From Solidesulfovibrio magneticus RS-1 (lineage in GTDB: Bacteria > Desulfobacterota > Desulfovibrionia > Desulfovibrionales > Desulfovibrionaceae): 64,000 nucleotides of DNA. Position numbers and translations under genes: made by a program. Below are positions 2,991-28,634 of this stretch, in pieces (positions within the stretch are counted from its first letter, which is position 1; every line of letters starts with the position of its first letter). The stretch is from contig NC_012796.1 of the NCBI RefSeq assembly GCF_000010665.1, forward strand, positions 3,625,501 to 3,689,500, given 5' to 3'. Below the pieces are notes generated by a model, which was not told the DNA's origin, ran no database searches, and was given only the letters and a program-made list of their open reading frames with translations.

Positions 2991-3025
2991 CCAAAAACAG
3001 AAGGCCCGGCAGAACCAGGCCCTCT
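2991..3025 (-). terminator. Intrinsic terminator after the structured RNA (element A)
   Basis: On the minus strand an 11-bp stem, AGAGGGCCTGG with CCGGGCCTTCT around a 5-nt loop, is followed by GTTTTTGG. It lies just after the conserved noncoding block and upstream of the regulator gene, so it would end the RNA transcript before the recombinase operon. Confidence 0.75.
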
Positions 3026-3765
3026 CATAAGTAATTTGCAGACCATCACCTTGCGCCGGAAGGTAAATACCTATCCGGCGCAAGATGATTTACTGGATCG
3101 AAGATAACGTCGCCGTCATCAGCGTCCATGGATTCCTGACAGGCGGTTTTCCCGCATCAGGCTCCCCGAGAGATGTTTATTGTAACCATCACATTTTCAG
3201 CACAATTATCGAACTGACTATTCCCTGCCAATCAACACCTTGAAATCAAGTACTGAATAATTCTAAATCTTAGCTCAACTAATCAACATCACTTCTTTCC
3301 ATAAACATCTCTCTGCATCTCTTACAGATGCGCTGCCATTCTCATTTGAAATTAGTCTTCTCACAAACCTACGCAAAGCGATCAAACAAGAACTTCCCTT
3401 CGTCGAGTCAACTCTAGACAAAAACCATCCGACACCTAATCGCATACACATGATTCATTTCAATACAATCTGTCTATTGAAACGAACTCACTAACAAGTA
3501 AACTTCGATTTGCCACGAATCTCGTTCATCATATGCGCCACCTTGGTTTCACACCTATCTGGCATTACCGGCTAGTTTAAGGCCTTATCCACTTCACCAG
3601 CTATTTCACAATATACTGGCTGGAAAATCTCAGGATCAATCATTCGATGAGAACGATGATTGATATAACCCCTGAGATTCTTCTTTCAGCCTCAAATCAC
3701 TCAGAATGATAAGGTCCACTGGCAGGACACTAGAACAACGACTTTGTAAGGCACCCATGGCTATT
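3026..3765 (-). ncRNA. Candidate large structured noncoding RNA (element A copy)
   Basis: No gene-sized open frame is present for 1.1 kb, yet short blocks align in order with 24377-25128 in element B. Examples are the 5' block ATGGGTGCCTT, the core GGTGGCGCATATGATGAA and the 3' block around 3094-3120. Hairpins recur at matching sites with changed but still pairing stems: 3315-3331 (loop GUAAG), 3458-3482, and 3626-3679, which contains an apical motif with a bulged base, a CG clamp and a 7-nt loop. Segments near 3582 and 3706 (CCTTATC, GATAAGG) can close a multibranch. An extra 11-bp hairpin lies at 3050-3085. An upstream terminator-like hairpin (3945-3978) and a downstream terminator (2991-3025) suggest an independent transcript. 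The family is unknown; the size is like the OLE, GOLLD and ROOL class, but I recognise no match. Confidence 0.7.
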
Positions 3766-4146
3766 TAGCCTGCACCTAGAAGCTATTAATAATTTACTAA
3801 AATCTTAAATTATTCATAAATTTCGCGGATAAAACTATCAGCAACAAAGAACAATACAAAATAATAACTAAAAAATCTTATAGTTAGAAATAATATTTCT
3901 ATATATCACGCGCAATTATTGTACTTTTAGAAGACTATTCAAAAATCAACAGGGTGTCCATACACCAGATGGACACCCCAAGTTCACAATCACCCCTTCT
4001 AATGATTTGAAGAATTAAAAGAATTATAACATTTAATTGAGTCCTCATCAAAGAAAAGTTTTGTCTTAGACAAAGGGGACATCAGCTATTCATCTTTGGA
4101 AATGATTTACAAAAAAAGACAAACTTTGACTAGGTAATATGGTACA
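3766..4146. other. AT-rich spacer between rep and the structured RNA
   Basis: No gene is seen. The AT-rich stretch 3780-3950 lies immediately upstream (minus strand) of the RNA and is the likely place of its promoter; no clear -35/-10 pair can be fixed. The rep terminator candidate is annotated separately. Confidence 0.4.
3945..3978 (-). terminator. Likely terminator of the element A rep transcript
   Basis: A perfect 10-bp stem (3952-3961 with 3969-3978, GGGTGTCCAT) with a 7-nt loop is followed on the minus strand by TGTTGATTTTTG. It is downstream of the rep gene and separates it from the structured RNA. Confidence 0.55.
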
Positions 4147-5235
4147 TCAAGATTTACTCTCTAAAAGACGATTTTTAAACATGATAATTTGAGATTTATA
4201 TTTTAAAACAGTTTTATAGCCAATACCACTTTCAATAGATATTTTATTGTAACTTAAATTTTGATTATTTAAATACAACTTTAAAATAGCATTACATATT
4301 ACTTCCAAAGTATTATTTTTTCTAATCTCATGGACATACTTTGCCCCTAAGGATTGTCTCTCTTTAATAACTGTCTCTTTATCATCATCACTAACATTTG
4401 AATCAATATCTTTTAAATTCATAACACCATAGTTCTTAAATATATATTTATACTGGGCATCATCTTTTCTGTTCCATATATATCTTGAAACATTTCTAGA
4501 AATAGTTAGAACCTCACTTTCACTCAATGGACCTTTAGAACTCCAATTTACAGATATCACAGAATAGTTTTGCTCTAACAAGTAATTATACAGTCCTTCT
4601 TGGAATACATCATAGTCATTGAACTGTTTAACAATTGAAACTGACCATTTCCTAGCTATATGAAACAGTTCTTCATTTCTACCAGCATAGATTTTATCTT
4701 TATCATATTTTCTAAATCCATGACAACTTGAGACTTCTACAAATTCAGCTAAGTAATTGAGATTGTATGCTTCATTATGCCAAGTCACTTTCCATTTTGA
4801 AGAAAATGGATTCTTTATTGAAGCATTTGTATATCCTGGGTCAGCTGAAGTTTTCTTTTCATAGCCATGGAGCACTGCTTTGAAGTAATTTACACATGAG
4901 ATTCTGATTTTCTTGAAGTTTTCATTGCACGGCCAATAAATTGGTTTTTTAAGTTCATAAGCTAAAGTTCCATGGCTATTTTCATTGTTTACAAAAGATA
5001 TCGTCGGCTGAGGAAGTCCTTCATCCATCCAAACTGAGACACCACCTTCCCAATCCAGATCGAGACAGAGATAATTCCTTCTTGATTTCGGAAATAAGAG
5101 ATAATTTGACTTTTCAAATGCTTCATCAGGCAAAGAACAATTATCAATGACTTTACCTGAACCCCAGCGGATTGTTCTATCGAAGTGTTGTTTAAATCTT
5201 TCTTGCGGCGAAATTGAGGATACAATAGTAGGCAT
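4147..5235 (-). CDS. ColE2-type replication initiator/primase (Rep)
   Basis: This 362-aa protein has the pattern of the ColE2 replicase family (Replicase/PriCT type). The aspartate pair LDLD is at residues 58-61, followed by GLPQPTISFVNNENSHG, ADPGYT at 131-136, IKNPF at 140-144 and GRNEELFHIARKW at 185-197. A helix-turn-helix-like C-terminus is at about 325-355. Such Rep proteins bind an origin near their own gene and make the primer there. I infer that the integrated element can replicate, or once did, as a plasmid-like form. The SD (AAGGAGA) lies within an inverted repeat just before the ATG. Element B encodes a version with an extra N-terminal PrimPol domain. Confidence 0.85.
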   Translation of the reverse strand: MPTIVSSISPQERFKQHFDRTIRWGSGKVIDNCSLPDEAFEKSNYLLFPKSRRNYLCLDLDWEGGVSVWMDEGLPQPTISFVNNENSHGTLAYELKKPIYWPCNENFKKIRISCVNYFKAVLHGYEKKTSADPGYTNASIKNPFSSKWKVTWHNEAYNLNYLAEFVEVSSCHGFRKYDKDKIYAGRNEELFHIARKWSVSIVKQFNDYDVFQEGLYNYLLEQNYSVISVNWSSKGPLSESEVLTISRNVSRYIWNRKDDAQYKYIFKNYGVMNLKDIDSNVSDDDKETVIKERQSLGAKYVHEIRKNNTLEVICNAILKLYLNNQNLSYNKISIESGIGYKTVLKYKSQIIMFKNRLLESKS

Positions 5236-5536: not shown

Positions 5537-6424
5537 TTAAACATCTGTATTAAATCCAAGTCTAGCATGACGTTTTGTCAAAACATCCTGAAGTTGAACA
5601 TAGTAGTCAATGCAGACTATCCTTCTCCGTATGCTCTTCGGCGAAAGAAGGTCGATGTATTTATAACCTAGCCTTTTATTCAAATACTCCTCAAGTTCGC
5701 TTCTATATCCATAATTATCATAGTTATGCAGTGCTCTTTTAGAGTTTATGCGATCATTAAACTTTATAACATGAGTCTTGTTTTCATCAGCAACCGATGG
5801 ATTCCAGAAAGGGATAAATCCATAAGCAGGATATTTAGACCAAGACGAGGAATCAGAATAATGGATTGGAGCATCTGCACACCAGTCATAACTACTGACA
5901 CCTAGAGCATGAGCTTTACAACCAGCATTGTATATTTTTATCGCAATATTCTTAATATTTTCTTTATTCTTTTCATTCTTTGAATACCCAGCAGATATTA
6001 TTTGATATTTTTGTTTAATATACAGGTCGACTTCGCCGCCAGTATAATCATGAACAACAGGCACAACAGGAATTCCAGCATCTTTAAGAATTTCTAAAAA
6101 ATTATAGTTAGTCGACAGACTCTCTTTTTCAAAATCTATATCATAATTAAATGCGAAGTCATAGGAACCTTTATACCTTACACAAAATGCCTTGTATCCT
6201 TCAAATGAAAACGGTAAATCACCTGGTGTAATCGAAAAATTTGCGGTAAAAGCCCCTGAATCAAGAATAACGCTATTGATATTGTCGTGTTTGTCTTCTA
6301 AAAACTTTTTATAATCAGGATCCTTCCCTGAGTAAGACAATAGGATATTTAATTTAGCTTGAGGAACACAACGAGTGTATTCCTCAAGCTCCTTTACCCC
6401 AAAACCAGAGAGGTAAATTCTCAA
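5537..6424 (-). CDS. TGT/DpdA-like transglycosylase, element A copy
   Basis: This 295-aa protein carries the marks of phage- and island-type tRNA-guanine transglycosylase relatives. LDSGAF at residues 54-59 matches the DSGGF motif of TGT, and YSDSSSW at 189-195 matches the DSSSW motif of the DpdA-like branch, where the Asp is thought to act in catalysis. In known systems DpdA-type proteins place 7-deazaguanine bases into DNA. Substrate and product here are not known; no preQ0 synthesis genes are in the window, so a host supply would be needed. A 302-aa relative is at 27726-28634. Its upstream neighbour begins 3 nt away and is also conserved, so the two are probably co-translated partners. A tRNA-modifying role is an alternative. 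Confidence 0.65.
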   Translation of the reverse strand: MRIYLSGFGVKELEEYTRCVPQAKLNILLSYSGKDPDYKKFLEDKHDNINSVILDSGAFTANFSITPGDLPFSFEGYKAFCVRYKGSYDFAFNYDIDFEKESLSTNYNFLEILKDAGIPVVPVVHDYTGGEVDLYIKQKYQIISAGYSKNEKNKENIKNIAIKIYNAGCKAHALGVSSYDWCADAPIHYSDSSSWSKYPAYGFIPFWNPSVADENKTHVIKFNDRINSKRALHNYDNYGYRSELEEYLNKRLGYKYIDLLSPKSIRRRIVCIDYYVQLQDVLTKRHARLGFNTDV

Positions 6425-21590: not shown

Positions 21591-22715
21591 CTACATTAAT
21601 TCAGGCAACAAACTAACTGCCCGTTCTTTTTCACCTTCAAGACAATGATAGTAATGGCTCGTTGTCGTAGATATCATTGAATGGCCTAGTAACTTTGACA
21701 CCGCAGCGAGGTCAGCACCCTTGCTCAGCATGGTTGTAGCAAAGAGGTGTCTTAAATCATACATTCTGACAGGGTAAGTTATTCCAGCCCGCTCACACGC
21801 TCTTCGGAAACCTTTACGGATCATGCCAATTGGCTGACCACGCCATTCGATAACGTAACCTGACTGCGATTCAGTCTTTACTTCTTTCATCTTACCAAGG
21901 AGAGTTGGGGAGATCGGAACGACCCGATAGGTTCTTGTCTTGCTGGCATAGATTTTTGCGATGCCTTTATCGAAGTCGATGTGATCCCATTTCAAGGCAA
22001 GAAGCTCTGATTCACCAGGACGCGTCCCCAGGCTGAAGCAAACTTCCATGGCCCACCTGACATGCGGTTCAGCGTGGTCCATGATCCTTTTAACGTCATC
22101 GACGGTCAACTGGACATCTCGGGGCTTCTCTCTTGATTTCTTCCTGCCCTTCATGGGGTTGACCGTGGTCAACCCGGTAGTGACACCGAAATTGAAGATG
22201 GCGTTGACGTAGTCGCCATAGCGGTTCACTGTCGGCTGTGACCGAGGGCGGTTCTGTTTCCCGTTGGTCTCCTGGAAGAACTGGATGAACGGCACCATGT
22301 CGTCAATGTAGGTCATCGAGTTCACCACCCGGTCGCCGATGATCGGATTGAACTGGTTGTCGATCATTTTTGCCAACTTCTTGGTATTGTTCTCAGTTCT
22401 GCCCGACACCTTGAGGTGAGCCAGGTATTTCCCAGCTAGCTCTCGAAAGGTCATCCCTTGGCCGGACTGAATAGTCTTCTCCGGTAAAGTGATCTCTTCA
22501 ATCATCTTTACTGGTGCGGGGGCTGGCGAACTGATCAGATCAGTCGGCGGCAGTGGCAATGCCGTACACAGCTTTTTGGCATCACTGACAGCTTTGTTGA
22601 AAGCTTCAGCCTGGGCATAAGCCTCTTCACCACGGCCAAATGATTTGTCTCGCCTTTTCCCTGTTTCATCATGATAAAAGACCATCCACCGTCCATCTCG
22701 GTCATAAACACCCAT
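21591..22715 (-). CDS. Tyrosine site-specific recombinase (integrase) of element B
   Basis: The 374-aa protein is closely related to the 355-1455 gene: MGVYDRDGRWMVFYHDETGK at the start, core-binding domain in the middle, and catalytic residues in TRPGE, DLRH, LGHS and SHYYH at the end. GGAGGAATTCT directly precedes the ATG; the frame extends upstream over the end of the next gene without a ribosome site. It lies 1.8 kb from the tRNA scar and should move element B at tRNA-Thr. The two integrases are similar enough that they could cross-act on both elements. Confidence 0.92.
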   Translation of the reverse strand: MGVYDRDGRWMVFYHDETGKRRDKSFGRGEEAYAQAEAFNKAVSDAKKLCTALPLPPTDLISSPAPAPVKMIEEITLPEKTIQSGQGMTFRELAGKYLAHLKVSGRTENNTKKLAKMIDNQFNPIIGDRVVNSMTYIDDMVPFIQFFQETNGKQNRPRSQPTVNRYGDYVNAIFNFGVTTGLTTVNPMKGRKKSREKPRDVQLTVDDVKRIMDHAEPHVRWAMEVCFSLGTRPGESELLALKWDHIDFDKGIAKIYASKTRTYRVVPISPTLLGKMKEVKTESQSGYVIEWRGQPIGMIRKGFRRACERAGITYPVRMYDLRHLFATTMLSKGADLAAVSKLLGHSMISTTTSHYYHCLEGEKERAVSLLPELM

Positions 22716-22834
22716 AGAATTCCTCCGAAAAGTCAATACGATCAATAGAGTTTTCAAAAATAGCAATAAACAGCAGTTTTCAAAAATATGTTTCAAACAA
22801 ATCAAAGGGCTCAAAAGCCCTTTGAAGGAAGTGG

Positions 22835-23392
22835 TTAAATTGTATTCATCAATATTTCTTCGACTTCCTCCTCTTGCACTCCAAGATACCTTCGAGTGAT
22901 CGAAGGACTGGAATGGTTTAAGCGTTTCGCTAGAACTTCCCAGGATACTCCGAATGCCTTTCGCTGATGGTAGGTCCATGTTTTTCGAAGTGAATGAGCA
23001 CCGTAGTTTCCTTTCAGATTAATGGCCTCGGTCCACTTCTTCATGTACTTTGTCACAGCATAGGTTGTGAGAGGATAATTCCGACCTTTCCTGCTTTTAA
23101 ACAGGAAATGATCATCGTCATCCTTTACGGTCATCAAATAGGCATCGAGTGCAGATTTGATCTCCTTGTTCACCACAAAGACATTGTCCTTACCCGTCTT
23201 CTTTTCGCGCAAGGTAACGCGCTCACCGATCTTCACATCTTTGACATCGCCTATTTTCAAGGCAAGTAAGTCTTGGACGCGAAGACCTGAATTCACACCC
23301 ATGACAAAAAGCAATTTGTCGCGGGGAGCATCAGAAAGTATCTTCTTGATGCTCTTCACGCTTTTCAGGTCGATGATCGGTTCTACCTTCAT
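22835..23392 (-). CDS. Short tyrosine recombinase, element B copy
   Basis: The 185-aa relative of 1534-2091 has the same catalytic set (SGLRVQD, HSLRKT, LNHSS, RRYLG). GGAGGTAAAAG precedes the ATG. The order short recombinase then integrase, with 119 nt between, is the same as in element A. The conservation of both genes suggests that both are needed for movement. Confidence 0.85.
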   Translation of the reverse strand: MKVEPIIDLKSVKSIKKILSDAPRDKLLFVMGVNSGLRVQDLLALKIGDVKDVKIGERVTLREKKTGKDNVFVVNKEIKSALDAYLMTVKDDDDHFLFKSRKGRNYPLTTYAVTKYMKKWTEAINLKGNYGAHSLRKTWTYHQRKAFGVSWEVLAKRLNHSSPSITRRYLGVQEEEVEEILMNTI

Positions 23393-23667: not shown

Positions 23668-24045
23668 TTAGACCTTCGTCAGAATGATCATCTCGTTCTC
23701 AACCGAGACAGAGAATTCATCTCCTTCGTTGATGACCAGACCTTGAAGGTCAAGGCTCTTCATATAGAGCTTCAATTCCAACTTGTTATTGACCTTCGGC
23801 CTTCTCGAGTTCTTCAGGTATAATCCCTTGACCTCGTAGAATGTCCTGTCATCGCTCATCAGCTTCAAGACGTATTGCTTCAAAGTCTGACGATGCGAGA
23901 CACCCATCTTGGCCATGATCTCCGAGGCAGTCATGCCCGCGAAGATGCATTCGCGAAGAAGCGAAGGATTGTACTTCGATTCGATCTTCTTCTTTTCAGG
24001 ACCTTCTTGAACATCCATAGCCGCGCTATCGTTCTTCTTGCTCAT
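23668..24045 (-). CDS. HTH/AbrB-like small regulator, element B copy
   Basis: The 125-aa relative of 2367-2744 shows the same layout: charged N-terminus, HTH-like ECIFAGMTASEIMAKMGVSH, and hairpin tail VNEGDEFSVSVENEMIILTK (first residues approximate). AAAAAGGAGCTTGT precedes the ATG. Its leader contains three mutually exclusive inverted-repeat arms (24159-24204). I infer a role in controlling the module. Confidence 0.68.
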   Translation of the reverse strand: MSKKNDSAAMDVQEGPEKKKIESKYNPSLLRECIFAGMTASEIMAKMGVSHRQTLKQYVLKLMSDDRTFYEVKGLYLKNSRRPKVNNKLELKLYMKSLDLQGLVINEGDEFSVSVENEMIILTKV

Positions 24046-24344: not shown

Positions 24345-24376
24345 CGAAAAAAGGACCCCGCCCCAAGGCAAGGTCC
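24345..24376 (-). terminator. Intrinsic terminator after the structured RNA (element B)
   Basis: On the minus strand GGACC and GGTCC close a stem that contains a GCC/GGC inner stem and is followed by TTTTTT. It is in the same position as 2991-3025 in element A. Confidence 0.65.
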
Positions 24377-25128
24377 CCATACACAATCGCGTAGTCTCGC
24401 CGCCGTCCCCGATGGTCTAAGCCACCAGGGAGAGCAGCGACTTCAGGATCGAATGATGCGTCGCCGAATCAAGCGTCCTTCACAACCCAACGTACGGTTT
24501 GCCCGTATTGAGCTGTAGCAAGAGATGTTTTTGTTCTTATTGAAATGCTTTGCCGATCAAGACTGTCAATATTTCACAGAAGTCAATGTCTTAAATAGTC
24601 TTGACGACACCAATCTCAATTTCAACTTTCAAATAATCTACAAATATCACATCTCTCGCCGTATCCCTTACGGACACGCAGCCATCCTCTTTAAAGACTA
24701 ACGACTCCAACGTTTTTGCTTTAAAGCATTTAAAGAGGATTTCCCTTGGTCTTAAGCCCGGTTCTTTGAAACCGTCCCACACTTAATCGCTATACATATG
24801 ACCAGAAGACACTTCACCTATCTATGTCTTCAGAATTGGACAAATCCAATAAATTTCAGTTTGCCATGAATTTCATTCATCATATGCGCCACCTTAGTCT
24901 CTCCATCATTTCAATGGATACGGTCCAGCTTCTCGATCTCAATCCCTTTCGCAACTGAATCGCTTCATATTGCTTAGATACGACTCAAGACTACTTGTTC
25001 GATGGAGCCGACAAGCAGTTTTGACCTTGAGCCATTTTTGTTTTTGATCGCAACAGAGCCTTAGGTTGAATCCGTTGTTTGCAGTATCAGCAACACTTGA
25101 CCTGCGACTTAATGCAAGGCACCCATGA
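24377..25128 (-). ncRNA. Candidate large structured noncoding RNA (element B copy)
   Basis: This is the counterpart of 3026-3765. Conserved blocks are 25115-25128 (5' end), 24860-24897 (core with CATCATATGCGCCACCTTAG on the plus strand) and 24445-24480 (3' end). Hairpins at 24661-24677, 24805-24831 and 24985-25024 correspond to those in element A with different but pairing stems. The apical motif (bulged T, CG clamp, loop ATGGAGC at 25002-25008) matches ATGAGAA in A. Nucleotide identity is low outside blocks while folding is kept, which is what a functional RNA shows. Known tmRNA or RNase P signatures were not seen. Confidence 0.7.
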
Positions 25129-25668
25129 CAATTTTACTACGCTAAATATTTGTTTTGATTATTTGAACATGCTGAAATCTTGAAAAGCTTATCTCGACTA
25201 TTCATAGCAAGCCATTGACTCCTGTTATTTCTTGACAATCACACGGATCGTATTCACATTCAATAATATACGTATTAATTTCTGTCTAACGAAAGAGAAA
25301 GTTGCCAAATCGTTCTGAAACCAGTCCCTTATCGGAATAATATGCTAGAAAATATCGTTAACTTTTATGTGAAGCATCTAAAATAAAGAGCTATCACTTT
25401 TCATATCTTGAAATTAGGAGGCAGCCTAGAAGACGCCATCCTCGTCAAGCTTTTAATTCAAATTTTAATGAACCGGTAGCAGTTTGGTATATCAGTTTTT
25501 CTCAAGAAAAAAATTATTATTTTAAAAATAAATATTATATTTATCTATTATAAAATGATTAGAATAATTTTAAAAATATTATCTAATTCTAACACTTAAA
25601 TAATATGATTCTATTTGATAAATCAAAACATACATTCATAATACAATTCAAACGAAGCTAGACTACGA
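25129..25668. other. AT-rich spacer between PrimPol-Rep gene and the RNA
   Basis: No gene is seen. The region 25490-25660 is very AT-rich and could be an unwinding element or promoter region. A weak inverted repeat at 25417-25444 might end the rep transcript. Confidence 0.4.
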
Positions 25669-27495
25669 CTAGGATTTTTTACTATCTATATAAACATTAA
25701 TAAAATCTCGCCTCGACCTAACGGTGTTTATGCTTTTCCCGCTACTCTTGGAAATATTCCTATCGCTCAAACTTTTTCCAGACGCCATCAAGTTGTCAAT
25801 TGTCGTTCTCAAGACATCATCGGTGTTATTTCTTTTTGCAATATGCGTATAGCCAGTCCCTAACATTTTATTGTCTTTAGCTGCTTTGCTTCTCTCTTCA
25901 TCATTTAGTGCAGGATCTATCGGAGACAATCCCATGACACCATATTTTTTCATATTTCTATTATAACGAGGATTGTCTTTGTTTTTCCAGAACCATTTAG
26001 AAACATACTTGGCAAGTCTATCTACTTCGTCATTGTCGAGAGGACCTCTATCAGGCCAGTGCTCCACAATCTTCGTAGAATTATAATTGTTCAGATAGAG
26101 TAATAAGGAATTAAAAAGACTTGGTTCATCAATCTGCTTTCTGACGTTAGCATTAGACCACATCCTTGCAATATAAAATAGCTCCGGGTTTCTTCCTGAG
26201 AATATTCCGTTTCTCATATTTTCAAAATACTGTTTTTTGCTGGGCAATTCTACGAAGCTGGCTAAATCTTTCAGCATATAGGAGTTATCATGCCACGAAG
26301 TGTCCCAGGCTCCAGAAAAAGGATTCTTAATTATGACATGGGTAAAATCTTTGTCTGCTTTTAACTTCTCGGTGTATGCGTACCTAATCGCATTAAAGTA
26401 TTCTATGGGTTTTCTGCGAATCTTATTGTCGTTGCGACCGCAAGTCCAGTACACAGAATCTTTCAATTCATACAAAATATGGGAGTGCCCATTCTGAGAA
26501 TTGACGATCACTATCGTTGGTTCTGGGAGGCCAACCGTACTCCATGCGTTCGCGGAATCCTCATAGTCTAGATCGAAGCAAAGATAAGATCGCCGCGACC
26601 TTGGCAAAGCAAGGTAGACACCCTCCCTGAAGGCCATAGCTGGATGCGATAATTTGTCACACTGTTTGTCGTATCCCCACAGAATACTATTATCGAAGTG
26701 CATTTTAAATCTTCTTTGCGGCGATGAATCAGAAGACTCATCTTCATATTCTTCAAACTCTGGAAAATCTTGCACGGAATAACAGTACTTAATTTCTGTC
26801 CCTGCTAGATCTTCTTCGAGAGGCAGGGCTGTATTGTCTTGAATTGGCTCTTTTCGACATAAATCCAGAACCCATTCTGGGGCAGGACTGATCGGCAGAT
26901 TCTTTTTTATCGTATAGAATTTAAATGTCACAGGATGTATTGAGCCTGGAGCTACGACCTGGAATCCTGAGCCTAGCACATCAAAGACAACGATACTCAT
27001 GGATTGACCAGGAATAATTTCAACATCTTTTTTCTCTTGATGTTTTCGATAAACAAATCCATCTGTCGGATATTGATAATAATAGTGATTCTTGCCGCTG
27101 CCAGTCTCAATGGTCAAAGTATTCTTGAAATCTTCTGAAATGTTGTTTTCTGAAAGATATTTTTCAAAACATTCTACATGATCAATATCCAGGACAATCA
27201 CGCCACTCGCAGGACCGCAAGCGACACCAGCATTGTTTCTTATGTAATCTAATGCGTTGAATTCATCTTTTTCAACACAGGCTTTCGACCAGCCGCATTT
27301 GATAGGTGCTTTTTCTTTATTTTTCTGTTCCGGCAAAGCTCTGACCGGTATTAACGAAAATATTTTCGACAGTTCTTCAAAAACTTCAATTCTATCTAGC
27401 TCATTAAATTCAGTCAGATTGTTAATCTTTTCGACCAGCTCATTCGGAAGCTGTCGAACTGCGGGCATAAGATCTTCTTCGTCCCGGAAAGACAT
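25669..27495 (-). CDS. PrimPol-ColE2-type Rep fusion, replication initiator of element B
   Basis: The 608-aa protein joins two replication domains. Residues about 45-215 form an archaeo-eukaryotic primase-polymerase domain: catalytic pair in VLDIDH (Asp103, Asp105), histidine motif GSGKNHYYY (132-140) and VAPGSIHP (181-188). Residues about 258-608 match the ColE2-type Rep of element A (4147-5235): CFDLDY at 306-311, NGHSHILYEL at 335-344, IIKNPF, and GRNPELFYIARMW, with an HTH-like end. The fusion would give origin recognition and primer synthesis or extension in one chain. Element A lacks the PrimPol part. Confidence 0.85.
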   Translation of the reverse strand: MSFRDEEDLMPAVRQLPNELVEKINNLTEFNELDRIEVFEELSKIFSLIPVRALPEQKNKEKAPIKCGWSKACVEKDEFNALDYIRNNAGVACGPASGVIVLDIDHVECFEKYLSENNISEDFKNTLTIETGSGKNHYYYQYPTDGFVYRKHQEKKDVEIIPGQSMSIVVFDVLGSGFQVVAPGSIHPVTFKFYTIKKNLPISPAPEWVLDLCRKEPIQDNTALPLEEDLAGTEIKYCYSVQDFPEFEEYEDESSDSSPQRRFKMHFDNSILWGYDKQCDKLSHPAMAFREGVYLALPRSRRSYLCFDLDYEDSANAWSTVGLPEPTIVIVNSQNGHSHILYELKDSVYWTCGRNDNKIRRKPIEYFNAIRYAYTEKLKADKDFTHVIIKNPFSGAWDTSWHDNSYMLKDLASFVELPSKKQYFENMRNGIFSGRNPELFYIARMWSNANVRKQIDEPSLFNSLLLYLNNYNSTKIVEHWPDRGPLDNDEVDRLAKYVSKWFWKNKDNPRYNRNMKKYGVMGLSPIDPALNDEERSKAAKDNKMLGTGYTHIAKRNNTDDVLRTTIDNLMASGKSLSDRNISKSSGKSINTVRSRRDFINVYIDSKKS

Positions 27496-27725: not shown

Positions 27726-28634
27726 CTATGGGTATTGCGTGTCAAATCCATTTGCGATGTGGGCTTCACGCACACGGTCTTGCATCTTAACAAAGTAATG
27801 AGTATTGACAAGCTGCCGATAAAATGTCGCGTTTTGTCCATACAAATTTTGATATGTTATACCGAGTTCATTTTTCAAGTATTCCATGATTTCGCCAAAA
27901 TATAGCGAACCATCCAAATATTTTTTGGAATCTGATTTGTTCGGTTCGAAATCTTTAAACCTCAGTGTTAATTCTGGGTCATTCGGAGTATTCTTGGCGT
28001 TCCAGTAATACATAAATCCAAAGATTTGGCCTTGAGCCCAGTTACTGCTATCGCTGTAATCAACTGGCAAATTCTTCAACCTGTTGTATGCGCTAACGCC
28101 GAGCAAGTGAACTTTCTTTTTCGCTTGCTTAATTTTTAACACAGTAGCGGCTAACTTTTGCTTGTCATTTTTGTGTTCAGAAAATCCAAGCGATATCAAA
28201 TCGTAACTTTTCAAGTATTCATCAAGCTCAGCCACTTCTTCCCCGATGTAATCATGCACAACAGGAACAACTCTTATCCCGGCTGCTTCGATTTTTTTCT
28301 GATTTTTATAGTTCTTTTCAAATCCATTTAAGTTGAAGTCTTCGTCGAAATTGAAAATAAAATCGAACTGCCCTTGGAATGTTTTACAATATTCAATGAA
28401 CCCATCAATATTGATGGGCTTACCGTTACTTCCTTCGATGTTATTTAAGCTGAAGGCCCCACTATCGAGGATAAGGCTGTTAATCATGCTCCTGTTTGTC
28501 TCAATCATGCTATAATAATCGCCACTCGTTGTCCCATACGACAGCAAAATGTTTATTTCTGCATCATTAAACATTTTTCTGTATTCAGCGAGAATGTCGA
28601 AGCTAAATGAAGAAAGGTAGATTTTGATTTGCAT
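27726..28634 (-). CDS. TGT/DpdA-like transglycosylase, element B copy
   Basis: The 302-aa relative of 5537-6424 keeps LDSGAF (residues 56-61, Asp57) and YSDSSNW (193-199, Asp195), both lined up with the same motifs in element A, and the shared VPVVHDY segment. Overall identity is moderate, so the two copies separated long ago while the candidate active-site motifs stayed fixed. The start codon lies 1 nt after the upstream partner gene. A role in placing a 7-deazaguanine base into DNA, or in tRNA modification, is inferred from the family. Confidence 0.65.
   Translation of the reverse strand: MQIKIYLSSFSFDILAEYRKMFNDAEINILLSYGTTSGDYYSMIETNRSMINSLILDSGAFSLNNIEGSNGKPINIDGFIEYCKTFQGQFDFIFNFDEDFNLNGFEKNYKNQKKIEAAGIRVVPVVHDYIGEEVAELDEYLKSYDLISLGFSEHKNDKQKLAATVLKIKQAKKKVHLLGVSAYNRLKNLPVDYSDSSNWAQGQIFGFMYYWNAKNTPNDPELTLRFKDFEPNKSDSKKYLDGSLYFGEIMEYLKNELGITYQNLYGQNATFYRQLVNTHYFVKMQDRVREAHIANGFDTQYP

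Follow-up and report, generated by a model that had tools for sequence, protein, structure and literature searches.

What is a structured RNA of about three-quarters of a kilobase doing in a bacterial genome when it interrupts no gene and lies, twice over, beside genes for tyrosine recombinases? The window (the whole stretch of DNA that was analysed, 64,000 nucleotides) comes from Solidesulfovibrio magneticus RS-1, a sulphate-reducing bacterium whose 5.3 Mb genome is in three contigs. An earlier note on this DNA, made from the sequence alone, had proposed a large structured RNA at two places, and had said that no known family fits it.

A family does fit, at least in part. The 3' part of the RNA matches domains 5 and 6 (D5 and D6) of group II introns, and the model of those domains in Rfam (RF00029) matches both loci, though below its gathering score. 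The best explanation is that we are probably dealing with a group II intron-type ribozyme RNA, without a reverse transcriptase (RT) reading frame, that forms a stand-alone transcription unit in the integration module of integrative elements of the Desulfovibrionaceae. Four things are still unfamiliar: domains D1-D4, ends that are non-canonical, the lack of a reverse transcriptase, and the fixed site by the recombinase module.

Two integrative elements and their RNAs

The window holds two integrative elements, both on the minus strand. The order in each is replication gene, RNA, a gene here called c1, short tyrosine recombinase, long tyrosine recombinase. In element 1, the RNA and its surroundings are as follows.

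4147-5235, minus: replication protein (PF03090, Replicase), a variable upstream module
3950-3980, minus: intrinsic terminator separating the replicase gene from the RNA (terminator scan)
3892-3902, minus: shared motif ATAGAAATATT, upstream of the RNA (motif test)
2999-3774, minus: the RNA, from the 5' strand of helix P0 to the terminator (alignment, covariation, fold, terminator)
2367-2744, minus: c1, a 125-aa HTH and AbrB-like protein, the constant neighbour downstream
2266-2276, minus: shared motif ATAGAAATAAT, upstream of the short recombinase gene (motif test)
1534-2118, minus: short tyrosine recombinase, catalytic domain only (PF00589, phrog_216)
355-1527, minus: long tyrosine recombinase (PF00589)

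The corresponding features of element 2 are these.

25669-27495, minus: Prim-Pol and Replicase protein
25275-25285, minus: shared motif ACAGAAATTAA, upstream of the RNA (motif test)
24351-25142, minus: the RNA, from the P0 5' strand to the terminator (alignment, terminator, fold)
25136-25142, minus: P0 5' strand, GCGUAGU
25123-25129, minus: IBS1-like GUCAUGG
24863-24869, minus: EBS1-like UCAUGGC
24442-24517, minus: domains 5-6 (RF00029, 33.0 bits, E 2.9e-4)
24389-24395, minus: P0 3' strand, ACUACGC
23668-24045, minus: c1
22835-23392, minus: short tyrosine recombinase
21591-22979, minus: long tyrosine recombinase (reading frame as called; true start uncertain)

The earlier note had read the RNA as lying on the minus strand, with a terminator of its own. 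Intrinsic terminators are indeed found at 3025-2999 and 24378-24351, and both loci encode an RNA of about 0.74 kb on the minus strand with strong covariation. The boundaries that it gave were slightly too narrow; from P0 to terminator, the RNA runs from about 3774 to 2999 and from about 25142 to 24351.

A conserved fold

Evidence for structure came from alignment of homologues. A first alignment held the two window loci and five more copies from the same genome. The main alignment holds 32 sequences from 10 genomes, out of 33 candidates; one (L043) was left out, its 5' part being cut by a contig end, while another (L023) was added by hand, and near-identical copies were retained. The fold of these 32 sequences has a closed D1, D2, D3 (the GUAAG hairpin), D4, D5 and D6, with D3 and D4 assigned partly by eye. 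In element 1, its parts are placed as follows.

3766-3774, minus: P0 5' strand UGCAGGCUA, complementary to 3045-3037; a clade-variable helix
3755-3761, minus: IBS1-like GCCAUGG, directly preceding the intron-like core, whose 5' end reads GUGCC from 3754 downwards; pairs with 3512-3518
3397-3754, minus: domain 1, closed by CCUUA/(C)GAAGG (in element 2, CCUUG/CAAGG) (RNAalifold and D1 model R1)
3512-3518, minus: EBS1-like UCGUGGC in the apical loop of domain 1 (covariation and pairing with IBS1)
3339-3392, minus: domain 2 hairpin; its stem includes column pair 486-535, one of the four significant over all pairs
3315-3331, minus: domain 3 hairpin with GUAAG loop, the first hairpin of the earlier note (alignment)
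3166-3314, minus: domain 4, stem AGAGAUGUU/AACAUCUCU with a variable loop and no RT reading frame (alignment, fold)
3134-3163, minus: domain 5, with AGC triad, two-nucleotide bulge and GNAAA-type loop (RF00029 match 3092-3166; covariation)
3094-3128, minus: domain 6, with GNRA tip; the A at 3098 is bulged, and all 32 aligned sequences have this A
3043-3088, minus: 3' hairpin right after domain 6, of variable sequence (alignment, fold)
3037-3045, minus: P0 3' strand UGGUCUGCA (P0 pairing tests)
2999-3025, minus: the RNA's intrinsic terminator (stem and U run align in a 28-sequence set)

Element 1 and L023 have, by eye, A/G in place of G/C as the closing pair of D1.

Covariation was assessed by a G-test with APC against a phylogeny-based null (30 simulations, 783 columns). 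Taken over all of the roughly 304,000 column pairs, four reach E ≤ 0.05, and each of the four falls inside a predicted helix. Among the 138 predicted pairs, 26 pass a Bonferroni threshold and 54 have p < 0.01; the predicted structure and the test use one alignment, which favours the structure, although the D5/D6 helices are those of a known model. The structure has been maintained with a mean column identity of 58-65%.

Single sequences were folded as well. From P0 to P0', the predicted stability corresponds to z = -6.4 for element 1 and -7.0 for element 2, with none of 20 shuffles equally stable, and these folds recover P0, D5 and D6 unaided.

The individual helices for which compensatory change had been claimed are in the alignment as well. 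For example, minus strand 3331-3315 reads GCAUCU-GUAAG-AGAUGC against GUGUCC-GUAAG-GGAUAC in element 2, with two double changes and one single. The hairpin at 3458-3482, the apical stem at 3635-3664 and the ACGA/UCGU stem are likewise seen, and so is the GNAAA hairpin near 3140, which is D5.

Domains 5 and 6, and the departures from a canonical intron

In a permissive Rfam scan, RF00029 matches over its full length at both window loci, with 33.0 bits (E 2.9e-4) in element 2 and 23.1 bits (E 0.07) in element 1, both below the gathering score of 40. In another species of the genus, one homologue lies above it, at 40.9 bits.

These sub-threshold matches are specific. A scan of the whole host genome, in which 150 of 213 first-look candidates were scored, gave seven places at E ≤ 10, all seven of them copies of the free-standing RNA. 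Over 14 genomes, 27 of the 32 listed places belong to the RNA family, four are the RT-bearing introns of genome G008, which serve as a positive control, and one is unrelated. The model is not sensitive across the whole family: 7 of 13 family loci scanned reached E ≤ 0.5, and L122, L125, L126, L134, L127 and L177 did not. Only a plastid group II D5 model matched L126, weakly (27.7 bits), and no group II model in Rfam matched the other five at E ≤ 0.5.

No D1-D4 model in Rfam matches the window loci (E ≤ 5) or 12 further whole-RNA loci (E ≤ 0.5), while L080, an RT intron of G008 used as a positive control, matches RF02001 and RF01998 in the same scan. Matches to Rfam families besides group II all fall far below their own gathering scores. 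OLE, GOLLD and ROOL are large bacterial noncoding RNAs of similar size, and size is all that the free-standing RNA has in common with them, as had been supposed; none of the three matches it in Rfam.

The details of D5 and D6 also agree with a group II origin. D5 has an A/C-G-C triad (AGC or CGC) in 32 of 32 aligned sequences, a two-nucleotide bulge, and an upper stem of 4 bp capped by a GNAAA-type loop; the textbook upper stem is one nucleotide longer. D6 has a GNRA tip and an unpaired, bulged A in all 32 (the pattern used to extract D6 required A, and no copy was lost for lacking it). In the divergent locus L127, D6 is irregular. When D5/D6 alone is considered in 22 sequences, the paired fraction is 96.2% (of 550 cells). 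The covariation measure there is 0.616 against 0.240 when shuffled and 0.055-0.131 with slid partners. Further, a search with D1 only gave eight new divergent loci, and the six tested all carry D5/D6 by a separate model (E ≤ 8e-12).

The ends are different. After IBS1, the 5' end reads G-N-G-C-Y in the 32 aligned sequences (GUGCC in 15, GCGCU in 7, GUGCU in 5, GAGCC in 4, GGGCC in 1), and the fifth G of the canonical GUGYG is present in none of 38 sequences, six divergent loci included. At the 3' end, none of the 32 aligned sequences has the canonical AC or AU ending 7-8 nt past the branch A; the dinucleotide at +7 is AA in 15 and AG in 10. By eye, the divergent locus L123 has AC there.

Judged by comparison of sequences, the RNA is of group II type, with six domains assignable. 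It is called "group II-type" here, rather than a canonical group II intron, because its ends are non-canonical and because Rfam's D1-D4 models do not match it.

No RT reading frame lies within the RNA. RVT_1 was not found in the host genome (G000) or in G004, G005, G007 and G011, that is, in five of the 11 RNA-bearing genomes among the 14 scanned; the other six have one or more RTs each. G004 is a single-contig assembly. The RT of G008, used as a query, found nothing in G000, G004, G005 and G007.

In G008, a close relative, the RT-bearing group II intron is present four times with the same score each time, and two of the copies are near neighbours. They lie at G008:C1:377649-380632 and at two further places, and L068 and L080 are among the loci concerned. 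Two copies of the free-standing RNA, L039 (G005:C139) and L047 (G000:C2:93741), have short insertions between D5 and D6, with an AT-rich stretch in L039; these are either decaying copies or tolerated extensions.

Candidate pairings of the flanking sequences

In group II introns, EBS1-IBS1 pairing would be expected beside D5 and D6, and a candidate for it is present. The apical loop of D1, UUC[AUGGC]AAAC, is predicted to pair with GYCAUGG immediately before the core. Over 38 sequences, 262 of 266 cells are paired, and among 15 distinct combinations the true matching beats permutation with p about 6e-4, in a permutation that ignores relatedness. Tested against a phylogenetic null, individual IBS1-EBS1 pairs are not significant (p about 0.1).

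Loci obtained after the idea had been formed bear on it independently of the first set. Three of them make all seven pairs with changed bases: L122 (GCCGUGG with UCACGGC), L123 (GCCACGG with UCGUGGU) and L125 (GCUAUGG with UCAUAGC). The double changes in L122 and L123 are new, and L125 pairs like its relative L023. In L126, L134 and L127, six of seven pairs form and one fails. A search by eye for EBS2-IBS2 gave no convincing pairing.

A second helix, P0, which the earlier note did not include, encloses the RNA. One strand is a leader segment some 10-28 nt ahead of the 5' block, and the other begins about 41-56 nt past D6. Its sequence varies by clade: GCGUAGU/ACUACGC, CGAAUUAUUUGCAGU/ACUGCAAAUAAUUCG, AUUUCGACGAUU/AAUCGUCGAAAU and CAGUCC/GGACUG are all found. 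In fixed windows, positioned after the helices had been seen, 21 representatives (L039 left out) score 21.5 with their own partners against 13.5 with swapped ones (p = 5e-5), and the own partner is strictly best in 9 of 21. In a free scan of 29 sequences (L044, L046 and L019 left out), the best helix lies at the place of P0 in 26, the exceptions being L025, L026 and L089, with p < 0.05 individually in 13. The best fixed-window helix of L126 is not the one seen by eye. The predicted P0 is, in fact, weak in several sequences. Because P0 joins the leader to the 3' flank, the "exons" would be a mere closing stem, and the whole would be one folded unit.

Distribution and neighbourhood

Copies of the RNA are found in at least 17 genomes of the Desulfovibrionaceae, in five genera. 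The D1 model matches at least 15 of the 348 genomes of the class, all in this one family, and in a sample of 395 genomes from the phylum it again matches, among the candidates scored (no more than 7 in any genome), in Desulfovibrionaceae only. Two further genomes were reached through c1 (L173 and L177); here only the D5/D6 model matches, at loci too short for D1. An exact pattern for the core occurs at eight loci in 84,980 species genomes (the window's own genome possibly not included), all from Solidesulfovibrio, Desulfovibrio sp. DV and Fundidesulfovibrio. The exact pattern has no match in viral contigs. Plasmids and phages, searched with the DNA of one locus each and with the c1 protein, gave none.

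What lies next to the RNA is constant on one side and variable on the other. Among the 41 loci that have flanking sequence, the RNA is followed by c1 and one or more tyrosine recombinases in 40, and the exception, L063, runs off its contig (c1 of element 1, L059 and L145 was missing from the automatic layout and was established separately). The replication protein upstream is of at least four types and switches even inside one RNA clade. Its constant position upstream of c1 suggests that the RNA is passed on as part of the element and not by retrohoming. Distances between RNAs follow those between c1 proteins (Mantel r = 0.86, 30 loci), with a lower value of 0.61 for RNA and recombinase. From these distances, the RNA is evidently co-inherited with c1.

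The C-terminal half of c1 has a weak likeness to AbrB/SpoVT/MazE (best E 0.28; model pLDDT 75), and one of 21 members matches MazE_antitoxin at 0.006.

A short motif recurs in front of these genes. It was defined as A[TC]AGA[AT]AT[TA]A[TA] with at most one mismatch on either strand, and its counts lean in its favour because it was picked by eye from these very loci. It precedes the RNA in 38 of 41 regions against 11.4 expected from shuffles (37 of 40 without L060, whose region ends at a contig end), c1 in 21 of 37 against 3.3, and the short recombinase in 27 of 37 against 5.2. Of the 21 instances before c1, 19 lie at -37 to -47 from the start.

The gene upstream of the RNA is divergent in one clade, where its nearest possible start lies 97-180 nt from the 5' block, so that the RNA should have a promoter of its own there. 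A promoter right at the 5' block, where TTAAAT/TATAAA just upstream resembles a -10 element, was considered and dropped, because no -35 was found by eye and because P0 requires that the leader be transcribed. A sigma54 promoter, read by eye, has the wrong spacing. A sigma-70 scan stayed near the shuffled expectation (13 against 9.7, and 7 against 5.4).

What the RNA might do

If the RNA is, as we think probable, a stand-alone ribozyme of group II type, the most likely course of events would be as follows. It would be transcribed from its own promoter. P0 and EBS1-IBS1 would then bring both junctions to the D5/D6 active site, where the ribozyme would cleave, or splice itself out of two very short exons, with no maturase. 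The intron RNA, or the short joined exons, could in turn act with c1 or under its control, and that role might lie in regulating excision or integration of the element, or in its maintenance.

A more specific version can be offered, tentatively, with the odds somewhat against it. Here, a group II ribozyme lineage would have been domesticated as a stand-alone noncoding RNA gene, keeping its active-site domains and EBS1 while shedding the RT, the host gene and the canonical ends. The substrates of such an RNA might be the two short paired exons that flank it, or DNA or RNA targets that match GYCAUGG, and it would belong to a tyrosine-recombinase integration module, controlled by a dedicated HTH/AbrB-like protein.

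One alternative is that this is an ordinary ORF-less group II intron that is spliced, does nothing, and rides as a passenger in an integrative element. ORF-less introns are described in bacteria (PMC4424553), and the intact D5/D6 and EBS1-IBS1 are just what such an intron would have. We nevertheless think this unlikely. The RNA interrupts no gene, and nothing obvious would select for its splicing, yet its structure is kept at the level of identity given above. A passenger is also not expected to sit upstream of c1 in 40 of 41 loci, to have distances that track those of c1, to share a motif with the upstream regions of c1 and the recombinase, to have "exons" that pair with each other in P0, or to have non-canonical ends.

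Alternatively, the RNA might descend from a group II intron, have lost catalysis, and now serve as a structural or regulatory noncoding RNA with D5/D6 as a scaffold or protein-binding site. The non-canonical 5' and 3' ends, a D5 upper stem one nucleotide under textbook length, and the absence of an Rfam D1-D4 match would all suit this reading. Against it, the AGC/CGC triad and the bulged A are kept in all 32 aligned sequences, and EBS1-IBS1, for which a scaffold has no need, covaries. On balance, this seems a rather poor prospect.

Very improbable is an unrelated new large RNA whose D5 and D6 look right by convergence. Such an RNA would match no D1-D4 model and would mostly score below gathering with RF00029, and 6 of the 13 family loci scanned indeed have no match to that model at E ≤ 0.5. 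This reading must, however, also account for a model that is specific in the host genome at seven places of seven, for one homologue that passes the gathering score, for the weak match of L126 to the plastid D5 model, and for two further features predicted of a group II RNA, the EBS1-IBS1 pairing and the bulged A of D6.

Remnants of a reading frame, which the earlier note had named as what might undo its proposal, are scarcely credible: the 5' block (3747-3758, minus) does read AUG GGN GCY UUR, x-Gly-Ala-Leu, in 32 of 32 with variation in third codon positions, and one short frame (SVRD) is conserved, but the former meets a stop within 5 codons in 17 of the 32 copies and after 18-40 in the remaining 15, shares no sequence beyond MGAL across clades, begins with ACG in one copy and has no obvious Shine-Dalgarno by eye, while SVRD is simply the D3 hairpin with its GUAAG loop, and indels and stem swaps abound.

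Relation to described systems

The nearest described case is C.te.I1 of Clostridium tetani, an ORF-less group II intron in a genome without an intron-encoded protein (IEP), which has a novel 5' splice site, lies between ORFs, self-splices in vitro, and is described as lacking EBS2 (PMC3919590). As described there, it has one locus, in a single species, where it is linked to a surface-layer gene and yields protein isoforms (PMC3919590). One review names it as the sole one of its type among over 1,500 (PMC4424553). So far as these accounts go, the two RNAs are alike in having no IEP or RT reading frame in the RNA and none found in the host genome, an unusual 5' end, and a place between ORFs. Unlike C.te.I1 as there described, the free-standing RNA is present in many copies over 17 genomes of one family and in no gene, is tied to a recombinase module, is closed as a whole by P0, and has its own terminator.

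Mobile bacterial group II introns that bear an RT or maturase, such as the four copies in G008, have D5/D6 recognised by the same Rfam model. They occupy scattered sites, whereas the free-standing RNA has one fixed site beside c1, no RT, a D1-D4 part that Rfam does not recognise, and ends that depart from GUGYG...AY. Phage group II introns described as ORF-less, about 600 nt long and resident in a mobile element (PMC12350094) are likewise comparable. They are reported to have been found by Rfam D1-D4 and D5/D6 models, and help from an RT in trans is speculated for them (PMC12350094). In contrast to that report, the free-standing RNA has no D1-D4 match, no RT found in its host, and no match in viral and phage collections by the searches described above.

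Group II components have been retained for new roles elsewhere, in domesticated protein derivatives such as the G2L4 RT (PMC12337344). In that case, as described, it is the RT that is kept (PMC12337344); here it is the RNA, and the RT is missing. Among open-licence PMC papers on group II introns in Desulfovibrio or D. magneticus, or on domesticated, exapted or free-standing group II RNA, no title or abstract opening describes such an RNA.

What makes this family useful, then, is its many copies in five genera and its maintained structure, with no gene interrupted, a somewhat unusual domain V, and scores mostly under the Rfam cut-off. With it, one can test whether bacteria are able to retain, and put to use, a group II ribozyme that has no RT. 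The family also bears on the route from intron RNA to snRNA, and suggests a ribozyme partner for a tyrosine-recombinase module. If domestication should prove the correct reading, the RNA would be the equivalent, on the RNA side, of the group II reverse transcriptases that have been domesticated, and bacteria would offer a parallel to the transition from which the snRNAs of the spliceosome arose.

Modules without the RNA, and other cargo

The protein c1 is more widespread than the RNA: 50 of 348 genomes have it. By the D5/D6 model, no RNA lies within the 1.5 kb flanks of 15 of the 21 c1 loci tested (seven of the 15 were rechecked with filters off). Modules of c1 and recombinase without the RNA therefore exist, and the RNA is not obligatory for the module.

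In four such RNA-less modules (L169, L170, L178 and L179), the same slot holds a small ORF for a hydrophobic/basic peptide of about 31-37 aa (for example, MVLRVVMVLIESKLAREILKQALIVVIKRSI, translated by eye), near an AGATATT motif. It is possibly an alternative cargo. In L066, L152 and L156, the RNA and c1 are both in place with extra DNA between them, which carries ORFs on the opposite strand, and this may mark a point of cargo insertion.

L168-L170, from three genomes in two genera, have a common GGGGCTTCCCCAGGGTTGACCC block before c1 that looks similar, by eye, to the GC-rich sequence at 2870-2975, ahead of c1 in the window. Farther upstream, both elements of the window carry a relative of phage queuine tRNA-ribosyltransferase (phrog_887), at 5537-6424 and 27726-28634 on the minus strand, and proteins of this cluster (c2) also lie upstream of the replication gene in several relatives.
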